Virus record (IMG/VR): IMGVR_UViG_3300049255_000026
Coordinates: 1-28,236 of that record
Length of the DNA stretch: 28,236 nt
DNA from: a virus
Reading direction: 5' to 3' (one strand)
In this document: positions 21,146 through 28,236 of the stretch, piece after piece
Layout: each line of letters opens with the position of its first letter
Numbering within the stretch: position 1 is the stretch's first letter
The notes under the pieces: model-generated
Databases searched by the model: none
What the model was told of the DNA's origin: nothing
What the model saw: only the letters and a program-made list of their open reading frames with translations
Made by a program: the position numbers and the translations under genes

Positions 21146-21376
21146 TCACAGTTTCGCAATCCCGGATCTAGGTCGCACGCTGTCGCCCAATCCCTCGCGG
21201 TGCAGCAATTCTGCCAGTAGCCTGTGCTCTTCGAGTTTGGTGAGCGCCCAGTCGTGCAGGATTTCGCGAGCGATTTGATTCATGTCGAGACCCCGTCGCA
21301 TCGCTTCCCATTCCAGCGCCACGTGAGACTCCACGGTGATTTTCGGGCGGATCGCATCCCTGAGCTCACGCGCCAC
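21146..21376 (-). CDS. Ribbon-helix-helix-like DNA-binding protein
   Basis: Seventy-six residues from a GTG at 21376. IRPKITVESHVALEWEAMRR looks like a short strand followed by the first helix, and GLDMNQIAREILHDWALTKL the second helix, of an Arc/antitoxin-type domain. The C-terminus is a charged tail. It follows the Cro-like gene by 3 bp and is likely co-transcribed. No partner toxin is visible, so it is more likely a phage regulator. Confidence 0.6.
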   Translation of the reverse strand: MARELRDAIRPKITVESHVALEWEAMRRGLDMNQIAREILHDWALTKLEEHRLLAELLHREGLGDSVRPRSGIAKL

Positions 21377-21379
21377 AAG

Positions 21380-21577
21380 CTAGGCAGCGGTTTCGCGCGA
21401 GCGAAAATAATGAGCAAGTCGCTCTACGTAGGAGACGCCCGGGTTGACGACGATGCGGCGTCCGATCTTCTCAATGGTTCGGTAGGAAATACCGGTGCTC
21501 TCGGCAATAGCCGGCCAACTTCCCTTCGAGGCCTCAAGGCTCTCGATGACGTACTCGTGCAGCGATTGGGTGTTCAT
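21380..21577 (-). CDS. Cro-like HTH regulator
   Basis: The 65-residue product begins MNTQSLHEYVIESLEASKG and contains SWPAIAESTGISYRTIEKIG, a clear helix-turn-helix, followed by VNPGVSYVERLAHYF, a C-terminal helix typical of small phage regulators of this type. It is transcribed divergently from the repressor-like gene, with the operator copy at 21591-21608 just upstream. The promoter prediction puts the RNA start two or so bases before the ATG, and no ribosome site is present. Confidence 0.8.
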   Translation of the reverse strand: MNTQSLHEYVIESLEASKGSWPAIAESTGISYRTIEKIGRRIVVNPGVSYVERLAHYFRSRETAA

Positions 21578-21585
21578 GATGGCCG

Positions 21586-21614
21586 ATAGTACGCCCTACT
21601 TAGGGCGTATGCAA
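21586..21614 (-). promoter_or_regulatory. Predicted left promoter with operator in the spacer
   Basis: On the minus strand TTGCAT (21614-21609), a 17-base spacer, and TACTAT (21591-21586). The spacer lies within the perfect palindrome ACGCCCTACTTAGGGCGT (21591-21608). Repressor binding would therefore block RNA polymerase directly. Transcript would start near 21579, at the ATG of the Cro-like gene. Confidence 0.6.
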
Positions 21615-21621
21615 TCCGGTT

Positions 21622-21629
21622 TAGGGCGT
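21622..21629. promoter_or_regulatory. Operator half-site
   Basis: TAGGGCGT is one arm of the 18-bp palindrome; the other arm is degenerate. It lies between the left operator and the repressor-like gene, so it may support cooperative binding or autoregulation. Confidence 0.4.
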
Positions 21630-21653
21630 GACGAGTGCTTAAGTTTGCTTCGC

Positions 21654-21971
21654 ATGAAACAAACAAGAAATTCGAGAAGCAAACGTCCACCTAGCACAGC
21701 GAGCCGCCACCTTCGGGAGAATATCCTCGGTCTTTTGGCGTACAACTACCCCACGTTGTCGGCATATGCGCGCAACACCAAGCTCGCGGAGTTGTCCCGG
21801 TTGTCGCGCTCACAGATCGAGCGCATGGTCGTCGACCCGGATGACCTGTCGACCAAGATTCAGTACGTCGAGTCCAGGATCGACACGGTCGAAATGGTGG
21901 CCCTCGCTCTCAACGTAACAACGGCCGATCTGCTTACCCCTGGGTTTGCCATCAAGCGCAAAAACGTGTGA
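21654..21971 (+). CDS. XRE-like prophage repressor, putative
   Basis: From the ATG at 21654 the product is 105 residues. A basic start is followed by LRENILGLLAYNYPTLSAYA and a helix-turn-helix around AELSRLSRSQIERM, and the end ALALNVTTADLLTPGF is the classic closing helix of XRE domains. There is no C-terminal LexA-type peptidase domain, so induction would not be by RecA-stimulated self-cleavage of this protein. It lies between the two operator copies, as CI does between OL and OR. An ORF start at 21495 is possible but would overlap the divergent gene and operator. Confidence 0.75.
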   Translation: MKQTRNSRSKRPPSTASRHLRENILGLLAYNYPTLSAYARNTKLAELSRLSRSQIERMVVDPDDLSTKIQYVESRIDTVEMVALALNVTTADLLTPGFAIKRKNV

Positions 21972-21974
21972 AAA

Positions 21975-21995
21975 GCAGCATGAAAATCATGCTGC
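21975..21995. promoter_or_regulatory. 9-bp inverted repeat downstream of the repressor gene
   Basis: GCAGCATGA and TCATGCTGC are separated by AAA, 3 bp after the repressor stop. On the minus strand it is followed by TTTT. It may be a terminator for minus transcripts, or a second operator type, since a related GCAACATG follows. Confidence 0.45.
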
Positions 21996-22011
21996 AAAGC
22001 AACATGTAAAA

Positions 22012-22055
22012 ACGCCCTAACTAGGGTTGACAACGCCCTAAGTAGGGCGTAGTTT
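22012..22055 (+). promoter_or_regulatory. Predicted right early promoter with two operators
   Basis: TTGACA (22027-22032), a 17-base spacer and TAGTTT (22050-22055). The perfect palindrome ACGCCCTAAGTAGGGCGT fills 22033-22050. A second, imperfect copy (ACGCCCTAACTAGGGTTG, 22012-22029) overlaps the -35. It should drive the early plus-strand operon beginning at 22090 and be shut off by the repressor. Confidence 0.7.
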
Positions 22056-22089
22056 CGTATCCATCAGACAACGAGATGGAGAACGAACG

Positions 22090-22548
22090 ATGAACACCGA
22101 CCTCACCCTGACCGGCCAGGTCGACCAGCTGCACGATGCAAACCTGCGCGAGACGCTGCTCGACATCATGAACGGCCATGGCCGGTCGTACGCCAACGCG
22201 GGCGTGACGATGCCGCCGGCTCCGCCGATGCAGCCCTCGCCGCTGCCGTGGACGCTGCACGAGAACGACTGGGAGATCCAGGACGCGGAAGGCCGCTCCA
22301 TCGTGCTCGCGAGCATTGCGGAGGAAGACGGCCCCTGGACGCAGATGAAGGACGCCGTCAACGGCCGGTTCGTCGTCAAGGCAGTGAACTGCCACCAGGA
22401 CCTGGTTAACGGCTGCAACGCGCTGCTCGGCCTGCTTCAACTGGTTTGCGCCCGTGATGATCTGCCGGCCGACATTGCGCGAGCGTTGACGACAAGTCAC
22501 CGGATCGAAGAGGCCCGCGCCGCGCTCGCGAAGGCGGGTGCGCTGTGA
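22090..22548 (+). CDS. Hypothetical early protein
   Basis: The 152-residue product starts with ATG at 22090 and has GGAG eight bases upstream. It has a helical start, a Pro-rich middle (PPAPPMQPSPLPWTLHENDW), and a helical end with RFVVKAVNCHQDLVNGCNAL, a segment seen in phage early proteins of unknown function. It is the first gene of the early operon, so it may be a regulator or anti-host factor. Confidence 0.7.
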   Translation: MNTDLTLTGQVDQLHDANLRETLLDIMNGHGRSYANAGVTMPPAPPMQPSPLPWTLHENDWEIQDAEGRSIVLASIAEEDGPWTQMKDAVNGRFVVKAVNCHQDLVNGCNALLGLLQLVCARDDLPADIARALTTSHRIEEARAALAKAGAL

Positions 22549-22706
22549 GCTGGCAGCGCGCACTGGTCGGCCTCTTTGGCCTCGCCGTGATCTTCGCCGC
22601 GCTCTACCTCGTGCTCGATGAGATCCGCCAACGACGGCGCGACGCGAAGGCTTTTCGCATCAATCCCATGTACCGCGTCGGCGCCGATGCCAAGGATTTC
22701 CCGTGA
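22545..22706 (+). CDS. Small single-pass membrane protein
   Basis: Fifty-three residues from a GTG at 22545 that overlaps the previous stop as GTGA. One membrane span, LVGLFGLAVIFAALYLVL, is followed by a very basic region (RQRRRDAKAFR). This gene has no ATG start. Function unknown. Confidence 0.6.
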   Translation: MSWQRALVGLFGLAVIFAALYLVLDEIRQRRRDAKAFRINPMYRVGADAKDFP

Positions 22707-22909
22707 TCGCCGTCTGCATCGACAAGGACACCTACGCGACCACGATCGCGGCGTTGAAGGTTGCGGCCCGGTGCGCGGAGCGATCCAAGGCCCCGCAGTT
22801 GGCTGAGCGCTTTCGGGCAGCGCACGACGACCTGCGCCGCTCCTACACGCTCGCGAATGATGACGGCCTCGCGCCCCTACCCTCACTACTTCGGAGACAG
22901 GCAGAATGA
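22703..22909 (+). CDS. Small hypothetical early protein
   Basis: Sixty-eight residues from the GTG at 22703, overlapping the preceding stop as GTGA. Mostly a long helix with DKDTYATTIAALKVAARCAE then AERFRAAHDDLRRSYTLA. It ends overlapping the ERF gene start by 4 bp. Function unknown; possibly a recombination accessory. Confidence 0.6.
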   Translation: MIAVCIDKDTYATTIAALKVAARCAERSKAPQLAERFRAAHDDLRRSYTLANDDGLAPLPSLLRRQAE

Positions 22910-23556
22910 ACACACAACTGAAAGAACCCTGGCCGGTGAACGCCGAGCAGACGCTTACACCACGCGCGAATCTCGCCGGCGCTTTTGCGAAAGCGCAGCT
23001 CGAGATGCAGAACCCGGCATTCGACGCCGCGAACCCGCACTTCAAGAGCCGGTTCGCCTCGCTCGCCGCGGTCCGCAACGCCGTCGTCCCTTGCCTCGCC
23101 AAGCATGGGATCGCAATCGCGCAGGACATCACCAGCGTAGAGGCCGGCGTCTCCTGCGTCACGATTCTGATGCACGCGAGCGGCGAGGAGAAGAGCTTCG
23201 GCCCGCTGATCCTGCCCGTGTCCAAGAACGACCCGCAGGCATTCGGCAGCGCATCTACGTATGCCCGGCGATACACCATGCAGGCGGTCGCCGGTGTGGT
23301 GGGCGACGACGACGACGACGGCAACGGCGCTAGCAAGCCGGCCTCCCAGCGAGAGGTCAAGCCTGAGCCGGTGAGCGAGGATGTGTGGACGGTGCTCAAA
23401 GACGCCGCCGCGGTGGGTGAGAAAGAACTGCGCAAGGCTTGGGCGGGTCTGCGCGAGTCCACGCGCGACACCATCACTGCGTCGTACACCACGCGCTGGG
23501 AGACGCTGAAATCCCTTGCAATTTCCAAAAGTCCGAAGAAGGCCGAGACCGCATGA
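22906..23556 (+). CDS. ERF-family single-strand annealing recombinase
   Basis: The 216-residue product has the ERF hallmark: NLAGAFAKAQLEMQNPAF, then NPHFKSRFASLAAVRNAVVP and a central GSASTYARRYTMQAVAGVV motif. An acidic GDDDDDGNG linker (about 137-145) leads to a C-terminal helical domain. It anneals complementary strands during phage recombination, pairing with the exonuclease immediately downstream. The stop overlaps that gene's ATG by 4 bp. Confidence 0.92.
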   Translation: MNTQLKEPWPVNAEQTLTPRANLAGAFAKAQLEMQNPAFDAANPHFKSRFASLAAVRNAVVPCLAKHGIAIAQDITSVEAGVSCVTILMHASGEEKSFGPLILPVSKNDPQAFGSASTYARRYTMQAVAGVVGDDDDDGNGASKPASQREVKPEPVSEDVWTVLKDAAAVGEKELRKAWAGLRESTRDTITASYTTRWETLKSLAISKSPKKAETA

Positions 23557-24197
23557 AGTTCACGATCATCACGCATTCTCAGCGTTCACCGGAATGGTTT
23601 GCCGCGCGCGCCGGCCGGCTCACCGGGTCCTGCGCATCGGCCGTGACGGCAAAGGGCAAGGGCGCATCCGAGTCAGTCGTGCGGCGCGACTACCGCTTGC
23701 AGCTCGCGTGCGAGCGGCTGACGGGAACTCCAGCCGAGGGCGGCTTCATCAACGAAGCGATGCAGAGGGGAATCGACTTGGAACCGGTCGCGTTCCCGGC
23801 CTACGAGGCGAAAACCGGCAACGTGGTACGAACGACCGGGTTTTTGTCGGCGGATGAGCACATGGTCGGCTGCAGCCTGGACGGGGACGTCGGCGGATTC
23901 GAGGGGATCGTCGAATTGAAGTGTCCAAAAACTGCCACGCATCTCGGCTACCTACGCAACCCCTCGACGCTTGCCGCTGCCTACATCGAGCAGTGCACCC
24001 ACAATCTGTGGGTCACGGGAGCGCAGTGGTGCGACCTCGTGTCGTACGACGACCGGTTGCCGCCGGCGCTGCGCATCGCCAAGGTGCGGATCGAGCGCGA
24101 CGAACTTGAGATCGCGGCGTACGAAAGCGCGGCACTCGCCTTCCTCGCCGAGGTCGATCGCGAGGTCGAAGCGCTACAAGGAATGGCGGCAGCATGA
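23553..24197 (+). CDS. YqaJ-type phage exonuclease
   Basis: From the ATG at 23553 the product is 214 residues. Motifs of the lambda-exonuclease family are present: RSPEWFAARAGRLTGS at the start, RGIDLEPVAFPAYEA, the catalytic Asp in VGCSLDG, and VELKCPKTATHL supplying the Glu-x-Lys pair, then YIEQCTHNLWVTG with the conserved Gln. It degrades one strand from double-strand ends, producing the single strand for ERF. A longer ORF start at 23439 is a shadow of the ERF gene. Confidence 0.93.
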   Translation: MKFTIITHSQRSPEWFAARAGRLTGSCASAVTAKGKGASESVVRRDYRLQLACERLTGTPAEGGFINEAMQRGIDLEPVAFPAYEAKTGNVVRTTGFLSADEHMVGCSLDGDVGGFEGIVELKCPKTATHLGYLRNPSTLAAAYIEQCTHNLWVTGAQWCDLVSYDDRLPPALRIAKVRIERDELEIAAYESAALAFLAEVDREVEALQGMAAA

Positions 24198-24607
24198 ATC
24201 AGACATTCATCCTGCCGCGACTTTTGAGCCGCGAGCGTGCGATCGAGCGCATCGCTAAGGTGCTCGCATCTTTATCGCCTGAAAAAGCCTGGCGCATTGA
24301 GATCGGCCTGCACAAGGAGCGGCGAACGCAGCAGCAAAACCGCTACCTTTTCGGCGTCGTGTATCGCACGATCTTGGACGCAGGCGCGCTCCAAGGTTGG
24401 GAGACTGAAGATCTACACGAGTACATGCTCGGGAAGTGGGGTGGTTGGGAACGAGTCGAGGGATTTGGCAAGGTTCGTTTGCGGCCGGTGCGCCGCAGTT
24501 CAACCCTCAACAAGGCGGAGTTCGCCGATTACATCGACTTCATCCAGCGCCGCATGGCCGAGCACGGTGTGTTTATCCCGGACGCGGACAAGGAGCTCGC
24601 AGCATGA
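24194..24607 (+). CDS. ninB: NinB-like (lambda Orf) recombination protein
   Basis: The 137-residue protein has the NinB pattern: KAWRIEIGLHKERRTQQQNR, then YLFGVVYRTILDAG and a helix-strand with DLHEYMLGKWGGWE, ending with DYIDFIQRRMAEHGVFIPDA. NinB-type proteins bind single-stranded DNA and support recombination mediated by annealing proteins. Its start overlaps the exonuclease stop by 4 bp. With ERF and YqaJ it forms a complete Red-like module. Confidence 0.88.
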   Translation: MNQTFILPRLLSRERAIERIAKVLASLSPEKAWRIEIGLHKERRTQQQNRYLFGVVYRTILDAGALQGWETEDLHEYMLGKWGGWERVEGFGKVRLRPVRRSSTLNKAEFADYIDFIQRRMAEHGVFIPDADKELAA

Positions 24608-26688: not shown

Positions 26689-26891
26689 TCCTCGCGCCCT
26701 CGGACTTGGTCGACCTCACGGGCTACACCCGGGCGTCCGCGCAAATCCGCTGGTTGCGGGATCACGGCTGGAAGTTTACCGTCAACGGCCTCGACAAGCC
26801 GGTGGTCGCCCAGGCCGAGTTCAATCGGCACATGGTGGGTGGCAAGGCTGCCAAGGTCCAAGAGCCAAACTTCGAAGGGATCAATGGGTAG
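26685..26891 (+). CDS. DUF4224-family protein upstream of the integrase
   Basis: The GTG at 26685 gives 68 residues: MILAPSDLVDLTGYTRASAQ then IRWLRDHGWKFTVNGLDKPVV. This is the DUF4224 pattern, often found just upstream of phage integrases; an excisionase-like role is possible but unproven. The stop overlaps the integrase ATG by 8 bp. Confidence 0.75.
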   Translation: MILAPSDLVDLTGYTRASAQIRWLRDHGWKFTVNGLDKPVVAQAEFNRHMVGGKAAKVQEPNFEGING

Positions 26892-27867
26892 AAATCGCAC
26901 ACGCAACAGGCATTTACCCGCAAAGGTGTCCCTTGAGCGTGGCGCCTATTACTACCGCAACGGCAAGAATCCGCGCGTGCTGCTCGGCCGCGACTTGGGC
27001 GAAGCGCTCGCCGCCTACGCGGCGCGGGTCGGCGCGGCTTGGTCGCTGCGCACCTTGGGCGATGTGATCGACCGGTACCGCGCCCAAGTGTTGCCGCTTA
27101 AGAAAAGCCAGCAGACACGCGACGAGGAGGGTAAGTCGCTTGAGCGCCTCAAGATCGCGTTCGGGCACTTCATCCCAGACGGGGTCACCGTCGTGCACCT
27201 CTACGCGTACATGGACAAACGGCGCTCCAAGGACGGCAAGCCGGTGCCTGTTGCCGCGCGGCACGAGATCGTGTTACTCGGCCACGTTTACAAGAAAGCG
27301 AAACGCTGGGGCGCGGCGTCGATCAATCCCGTGACGGGGCTCGAGCTGCCACAGAAGGCGCCGAAGCGCCGCTACGTGCCGATGGAATGGGTTGACCAGG
27401 TCAAGCGCTTGGCGAACCCGCGCATGCGCCTAGCGATCGACTGGGCCGTGATGATCGGCCAGCGCCGCGGCGATCTGCTCAAGGTGAAATTCTCGGACAT
27501 TCGCGAGGATGGGATCTACATCGAGCAAGGGAAGACCGCGGCGAAGCTTCTGATCGAGCGCAGCCCAGCAGTGGAGACGTTGATCTCGCGGTCGAAAGCG
27601 ATGGCACCTCAGATCCCGCGCGAGTACATCATCCGCAAACGCAACGGCAAGCCATACACCGCGGACGGGTTCTCCGCCAACTGGCAGCGGCTGATGAAGA
27701 AACACGTGGCTGTCGGCGGCGAGCGGTTCACCTTTCACGACCTGCGATCGGTCTCGGTGAACGAGACGCCGATCGACGAAGCACGCGATCGGCTGGGTCA
27801 CGAATCGAGTGCGACCACGAAGCGTCACTACTCCCGCGGCGTGACGAAAGCGAAGCCGCGATCGTGA
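26884..27867 (+). CDS. int: Tyrosine-family site-specific integrase
   Basis: From the ATG at 26884 the product is 327 residues. An N-terminal arm-binding part (basic, about 1-50) is followed by a core-binding domain (about 55-150) and the catalytic domain with Arg194 (GQRRGDLL), Lys217, His285/Arg288 (FHDLR), His306 (RLGHESS) and the nucleophile Tyr316 (KRHYSRG). It recombines the phage attP with the host tRNA-Arg attB. A start at 26839 is possible but would overlap the DUF4224 gene more deeply. Confidence 0.96.
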   Translation: MGRNRTRNRHLPAKVSLERGAYYYRNGKNPRVLLGRDLGEALAAYAARVGAAWSLRTLGDVIDRYRAQVLPLKKSQQTRDEEGKSLERLKIAFGHFIPDGVTVVHLYAYMDKRRSKDGKPVPVAARHEIVLLGHVYKKAKRWGAASINPVTGLELPQKAPKRRYVPMEWVDQVKRLANPRMRLAIDWAVMIGQRRGDLLKVKFSDIREDGIYIEQGKTAAKLLIERSPAVETLISRSKAMAPQIPREYIIRKRNGKPYTADGFSANWQRLMKKHVAVGGERFTFHDLRSVSVNETPIDEARDRLGHESSATTKRHYSRGVTKAKPRS

Positions 27868-27937: not shown

Positions 27938-27985
27938 TGGTGCGCCCGGAGAGATTCGAACTCCCGACCTCCTGGTTCGTAGCCA
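27938..27985. other. Probable prophage attachment site in the tRNA 3' half
   Basis: The integrase ends 70 bp from the tRNA 3' end, the standard arrangement where the 3' part of the tRNA gene is the att core. The second core copy should occur at the prophage's other end, which lies beyond the left edge of the window. The exact core limits cannot be set here. Confidence 0.6.
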
Positions 27986-28014
27986 GGCGCTCTATCCAAC
28001 TGAGCTACGGGCGC
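27938..28014 (-). tRNA. tRNA-Arg(ACG)
   Basis: On the minus strand a complete cloverleaf: acceptor GCGCCCG/CGGGCGC, D-arm, anticodon stem CCTGG/CCAGG with loop CTACGAA (anticodon ACG), variable arm, T-arm with TTCGAAT, discriminator A and encoded CCA (27940-27938). The 3' end faces the integrase gene. Confidence 0.97.
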
Positions 28015-28036
28015 GTGATACATCAACTTCAAAAGA

Positions 28037-28120
28037 TGGCGGAGAGGGAGGGATTGCTCGGGCTGCGCCCTCGTCCCTGCGGGACCGCCGGCGCCGCGCC
28101 GGCGTCTCCCTCCCTCTTCG
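28037..28120. repeat. tRNA-Ser-end-like palindromic repeat, copy 1
   Basis: Begins TGGCGGAGAGGGAGGGATT, which equals the complement of a typical tRNA-Ser 3' end including CCA. Internal hairpins (GTCCC TGC GGGAC and GCCGGC...GCCGGC) follow, and the element closes with TCCCTCCCTC, complementary to the start. Host DNA downstream of the tRNA gene. Confidence 0.75.
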
Positions 28121-28180
28121 TGCCGACTAATTCTTCGGGCCGTTCAGTCTTACATCCAACGAAAAACATTCGTATCCTAT

Positions 28181-28236
28181 TGGCGGAGAGGGAGGGATTG
28201 CTCGTCGCTCCGCTCCTCGTCCCTCCGGGACCGCCG
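28181..28236. repeat. tRNA-Ser-end-like palindromic repeat, copy 2, cut by the edge
   Basis: The first 24 bases equal those of copy 1, and the segment TCGTCCCT(G/C)CGGGACCGCCG is shared; the part between them has diverged. It runs off the right edge. Confidence 0.75.

Follow-up and report, generated by a model that had tools for sequence, protein, structure and literature searches.

What maintains lysogeny in a phage whose apparent repressor consists of a DNA-binding domain only? The question is raised by a virus record in IMG/VR that is 28,236 b long, analyzed here over its whole length and referred to as the window. Leftward in the window lie structural genes (portal, terminase) and replication genes, with DUF1376/primosomal and helicase genes downstream of cro; rightward lie ERF, YqaJ, NinB-like, and integrase genes, in a unit that ends at tRNA-Arg (27938-28014). 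The portal is most similar (~38%) to those of podovirus-type phages, e.g., Escherichia phage TL-2011b. In the region between the two transcription units, operators are duplicated and placed within promoter-like boxes, one gene is homologous to cro, and the layout is kept in relatives. We consider this, with a probability of about 0.87, to be the immunity region of a temperate tailed phage with the wiring of lambda OL/OR, in which a 105-aa repressor and Cro would act on shared operators. The features on which this reading draws are as follows.

21146-21376, minus strand: 76-aa ORF in the position of lambda cII, starting 3 nt past the cro stop
21380-21577, minus strand: cro-like gene, 65 aa, HTH (phrog_9425, E=1.3e-15)
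21586-21614, minus strand: candidate leftward early promoter, PR-equivalent (cro), TTGCAT (21614-21609)-17-TACTAT (21591-21586), 8/12
21591-21608, minus strand: O1-left, perfect operator in the leftward promoter spacer
21612-21629, minus strand: O2-left, degenerate, with the half at 21622-21629 intact and the half beside the -35 box lost; 21 bp centre-to-centre from O1
21654-21971, plus strand: putative repressor gene, 105 aa, CI-type HTH domain only
21975-21995, no strand assigned: other palindrome, perfect over 21 bp, unrelated in sequence to the operator, between the repressor stop and O2-right
22012-22029, plus strand: O2-right, 3 mismatches, its last 3 bases beginning the -35 TTGACA
22027-22055, plus strand: candidate rightward early promoter, PL-equivalent, TTGACA (22027-22032)-17-TAGTTT (22050-22055), 9/12
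22033-22050, plus strand: O1-right, perfect 18-bp operator in the rightward promoter spacer
22090-24607, plus strand: start of the rightward operon, a 152-aa ORF, then small ORFs, ERF, YqaJ, and NinB-like
22906-23556, plus strand: ERF annealing protein, rightward operon
to 24197, plus strand: YqaJ exonuclease, rightward operon
24194-24607, plus strand: NinB-like, rightward operon
26839-27867, plus strand: integrase, reached via further genes after NinB-like

Profile and pairwise comparisons place the left gene product among the Cro homologues of the phrog_9425 family. The profile match covers residues 3-63 of 65, and pairwise identity is 37% with the Cro annotated in Pseudomonas phage PAJU2 and 32% with the XRE regulator of Bordetella phage IFTN4. 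It is divergent from the repressor gene and is the first gene of the early replication operon. Its ATG lies 8 nt after the -10 box (21577-21591), compared with 6 to 7 nt in seven related loci described below (L006 and L053-L058), and the cro mRNA is probably leaderless in the window and in these relatives, with its start expected on or within ~2 nt of the ATG. A leaderless cro has precedent, since the cro and cI mRNAs of phage PY54 were found to be leaderless by RACE (PMC4488713). The 76-aa ORF that follows looks ribbon-helix-helix-like, judged by eye only, and family searches with it gave no match.

For the 105-aa protein, the evidence of homology to CI N-terminal domains is weak but consistent. 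Its match to Pfam HTH_26 (E=0.023, 15.4 bits) falls below the curated cut-off of 22, its best pairwise match is the N terminus of PAJU2 CI (27%, pair E=7e-4), and it also aligns with the N-terminal domain of IFTN4 CI; hhalign against a six-member CI N-domain profile built from Cro-relative phages gave 70% and E=3.9e-5. Structure prediction from the single sequence was of low confidence and gave no fold match, a search of GenBank phages found no relative of the repressor, and peptide patterns run against IMG/VR and GTDB genomes returned no close relative of use for either the repressor or Cro. The end of the protein coincides with the start of the S24 linker in CIs of the PAJU2/IFTN4 type. A repressor without a LexA-type domain had been claimed, and we agree: there is no S24 match in the 105 aa and no room for such a domain before the rightward promoter. 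Within the Cro-relative group the missing sensor domain is unusual, although not unheard of, and the 103-aa repressor of mycobacteriophage BPs works without a cleavage domain (PMC4557955). Because the window repressor lacks an S24/LexA-type domain, we infer that derepression would probably proceed by an antirepressor, by repressor instability, or by Cro accumulation and not by RecA-stimulated cleavage.

The difference in strength between the two assignments leaves room for one competing account, in which the Cro-like protein alone binds the palindromes, with the 105-aa protein in an accessory HTH role and lysogeny maintained in some other way, e.g., by a repressor encoded outside the fragment. 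The Cro assignment (E=1.3e-15) is indeed far stronger than that of the repressor, and the Cro of PY54 binds a single operator, so that a full set of shared sites is not required for CI and Cro (PMC4488713). However, the 105-aa gene occupies the exact cI position, divergent from cro and between the operator pairs, and its product aligns with CI N-domains from the same phage group; we consider Cro-only binding improbable.

The operator, ACGCCCTA-N2-TAGGGCGT, occurs as perfect 18-bp copies at 21591-21608 and 22033-22050, and the left palindrome extends to 20 bp (TACGCCCTACTTAGGGCGTA, 21590-21609). The original prediction of these two full palindromes, of an imperfect copy at 22012-22029, and of a half-site at 21622-21629 stands in every part: both full copies are present and perfect, the imperfect copy carries 3 mismatches, and TAGGGCGT at 21622-21629 forms the preserved half of a site that spans 21612-21629 and keeps the 21-bp register. 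The four elements in fact reduce to one 46-nt block that is present twice and inverted, at 21584-21629 (leftward) and 22012-22057 (rightward), with 37/46 positions identical. Read in promoter orientation, the sequence is ACGCCCTAAACCGGATTGCATACGCCCTAAGTAGGGCGTACTATCG for the left block and ACGCCCTAACTAGGGTTGACAACGCCCTAAGTAGGGCGTAGTTTCG for the right, with an identical central AG. In each, a perfect O1 fills the 17-bp spacer and a degenerate O2 lies 21 bp upstream, touching the -35 box, its outer half intact and its inner half eroded where the -35 box is needed; the imperfect copy and the site that contains the half-site are positional equivalents. The two O1 copies are 442 bp apart, and no third site was seen on either side. 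The proposed search for further copies of the palindrome across the 28,236-b record found none else within 2 mismatches. Shuffled sequence gave an expectation of 0.08 matches per shuffle, and 3 matches were not reached in any of 100 shuffles. When repeated perfect palindromes <1 kb apart were counted de novo, 2 were observed, whereas 200 dinucleotide shuffles averaged 0.015; both are nested forms of the single operator pair.

The palindrome at 21975-21995 (GCAGCATGAAAATCATGCTGC) begins 3 nt past the repressor stop and has a half copy with 1 mismatch at 21999. It folds well as RNA (z=-4.5) and may be a terminator, a processing hairpin, or the site of another regulator.

The palindromes were also said to fill the 17-bp spacers of outward-pointing promoter boxes, and both box pairs were found, at 8/12 and 9/12. 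Across the 56,416 window positions scored with a 17-bp spacer, TTGACA-17-TAGTTT is the best sigma70 match and the sole one at 9/12; 24 positions reach 8/12 or better, TTGCAT-17-TACTAT among them. The ranks were computed without using the palindrome, so the coincidence of promoters and palindromes is independent support. The -10 boxes match at 3/6 and 4/6. Neither promoter is listed by a strict scan (at least 4/6 per box and 9/12 overall), so the boxes are good for such GC-rich DNA and not consensus. We infer that both candidate promoters are used. No convincing promoter for the repressor gene was found.

An alternative is that the palindromes act as RNA hairpins, i.e., as terminators or attenuators, and not as operators. 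A terminator scan does flag 22033-22050, the RNA of which folds stably (z=-2.9), but the start predicted for each promoter falls downstream of its palindrome, which is thus absent from that transcript, the T run is absent and the stem has a 2- to 4-nt loop, and an identical sequence on both sides with degenerate copies 21 bp upstream fits protein sites, not terminators. We regard the hairpin explanation as very improbable. Chance can be set aside with near certainty: the 16-bp core does occur as a single copy in 38 viral contigs of IMG/VR, but none of the 38 has a second exact core or the two-sided promoter setting, only 4 have near-copies with 2 to 3 mismatches 0.2 to 2 kb away, none of them at 21 to 24 bp, and two perfect copies within 442 bp are absent from shuffles, which refutes chance statistically.

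The original prediction of OL/OR logic gains support from relatives. A scan of IMG/VR by Cro alignment gave eight loci, two of which, L051 and L052, resemble PAJU2; the remaining six (L053-L058) were compared alongside IFTN4 (L006, which is nearly identical to L054 over this region). At all seven loci, cro is directly preceded by a promoter-like sequence whose 16- to 17-bp spacer is filled by a palindrome with the consensus TAGCAAANNTTTGCTA; another copy of TAGCAAANNTTTGCTA lies 23 bp upstream, touching the -35 box. Five loci (L006, L053, L055, L056, and L058) have a further pair, spaced 23 to 24 bp, located 1.4 to 3.2 kb away and beyond cI. The far pair fills the gap between boxes on the opposite strand in L006 (TTGACC-18-TATTGT, 9/12) and L058 (TTGACA-18-TAAAGT, 10/12); its promoter setting is weak in L053, L055, and L056. 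Single OR boxes in the relatives score 7 to 8/12, which is unremarkable against background (2 to 13% of positions), and the weight of this evidence comes from the repeated geometry, not from single OR box scores. No close relative with an identical operator was present in the collections searched, so conservation was judged for the layout and not for the operator sequence. Since the layout is common to the Cro relatives, the window follows the group's design and has an operator sequence of its own. The recognition helices differ accordingly in both proteins (ISYRTIEKI in the window Cro and VSYSWISKF in the group; LSRSQIERM in the window repressor and AQTTISLYL in the group), as a joint change of specificity would predict, although this is no proof of binding.

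S24 was matched in the repressors of PAJU2, IFTN4, L054, L057, and L058. Those of L053 and L056 are short (~145 to 190 aa) and without S24 (by Pfam for L053 and from the ORF for L056), and the window repressor, at 105 aa, is the shortest of the group. In the cI position of L055, a gene at 2188-2928 on the minus strand encodes an HTH and a P-loop NTPase-like region (ResIII/AAA matches) without S24; the NTPase-like region is possibly a different sensor.

Exact operator matches elsewhere in IMG/VR, in L003 and L004, are single copies located in unrelated genes or at their ends and were attributed to chance. L003, an unrelated AT-rich phage contig, has identical 19-bp palindromes of its own (AACCTGCTAATAGCAGGTT, at 1357-1375 and 1784-1802) that flank a 113-aa ORF. 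Repeated palindromes in the ERF-bearing relatives L036, L012, and L020 were rejected as operator pairs of the window type.

Among the closest known systems, Bordetella phages vB_BaM-IFTN4/5/8 and L053-L058 share with the window a homologous Cro (32 to 39% identity), O1 in the spacer, O2 at the -35 box, and a second pair beyond cI. They differ in the operator (TAGCAAANNTTTGCTA, with 23 bp between O1 and O2, against ACGCCCTANNTAGGGCGT and 21 bp in the window), in an OL-OR distance of 1.4 to 3.2 kb, and in repressors that are longer, most with S24; induction of IFTN8 with mitomycin C is on record. PAJU2 resembles the window in its Cro and its CI N-domain, but its CI carries S24, its cI-cro gap has no perfect palindrome, and its cro, judged by position, is not leaderless. 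In lambda, as summarized in the introductions of PMC4557955 and PMC4488713, O1 lies between the -35 and -10 boxes and O2 at the -35 box. The window shares this O1/O2 placement, the divergent repressor and cro genes, and two candidate outward early promoters that flank the repressor gene; unlike lambda, it has two sites per side, an HTH-only repressor, another operator sequence, and an operator separation of 442 bp instead of kilobases. The lambda arrangement of three sites per region, with OR3 controlling the repressor promoter, was not found in the window, and with two sites per side we classify the region as OL/OR-type and not as lambda itself. Many non-lambda phages have fewer than three sites per operator region. 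By description, and with no claim of homology, the repressor of BPs, gp33, is similarly very short and without a cleavage domain, with an operator between the -10 and -35 boxes of PR (PMC4557955); BPs differs in a 12-bp palindrome that is half of a larger site, a tetramer, five operator regions, and integration-dependent immunity. The cI/cro region of Yersinia phage PY54 likewise has a palindromic operator, of 16 to 18 bp (PMC4488713), but a single one (OR3) and a Cro of different specificity.

Under the lambda-like reading that we prefer, the 105-aa HTH protein would be the prophage repressor, a dimer of which would occupy O1 inside the spacer of both outward promoters; O2, beside the -35 box and 21 bp or two helical turns away, would probably be occupied too. 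RNA polymerase would be blocked at the leftward promoter, keeping cro and then the replication genes off, and at the rightward promoter, keeping the recombination genes through integrase off. In lytic growth, the 65-aa Cro-like protein would compete for the repressor's sites. O1 is the likely target of both regulators and O2 an auxiliary site. Cooperativity is a guess, as is autoregulation of the repressor through O2-left, which lies 24 bp from its ATG. DNA looping between the operator blocks (442 bp, 42.1 turns at 10.5 bp) is not favored because looping in lambda requires the CI C-terminal domain, which the window repressor lacks. We suggest, tentatively and as the less probable case, a minimal cassette in which a lone 105-aa domain with no oligomerization or sensor domain keeps lysogeny by means of two inverted 46-bp promoter-operator blocks 442 bp apart, with switching by a non-RecA partner such as the ORF behind cro.

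The design itself is ordinary, well known, and common to distant phages; the novelty lies in the sequence of the operator, in how compact the inverted arrangement is, and in a repressor with an HTH domain only. An immunity region and an operator sequence are now fixed for an otherwise unplaced prophage. Furthermore, phages whose repressors carry S24, an NTPase-like domain, or no further domain have the Cro/operator layout in common. Within this set, the repressor's sensor half is swapped or lost and the DNA-binding switch is kept, which makes the set useful for the question of non-SOS prophage induction.

At the far end of the window (27938-28236), the tRNA-Arg adjoins integrase and is a likely attachment site. 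The DNA past it is probably that of the host and contains repeats resembling a tRNA-Ser 3' end. The top match of the tRNA is a Xanthomonas sacchari record (96%), a hint of a Xanthomonadales host.
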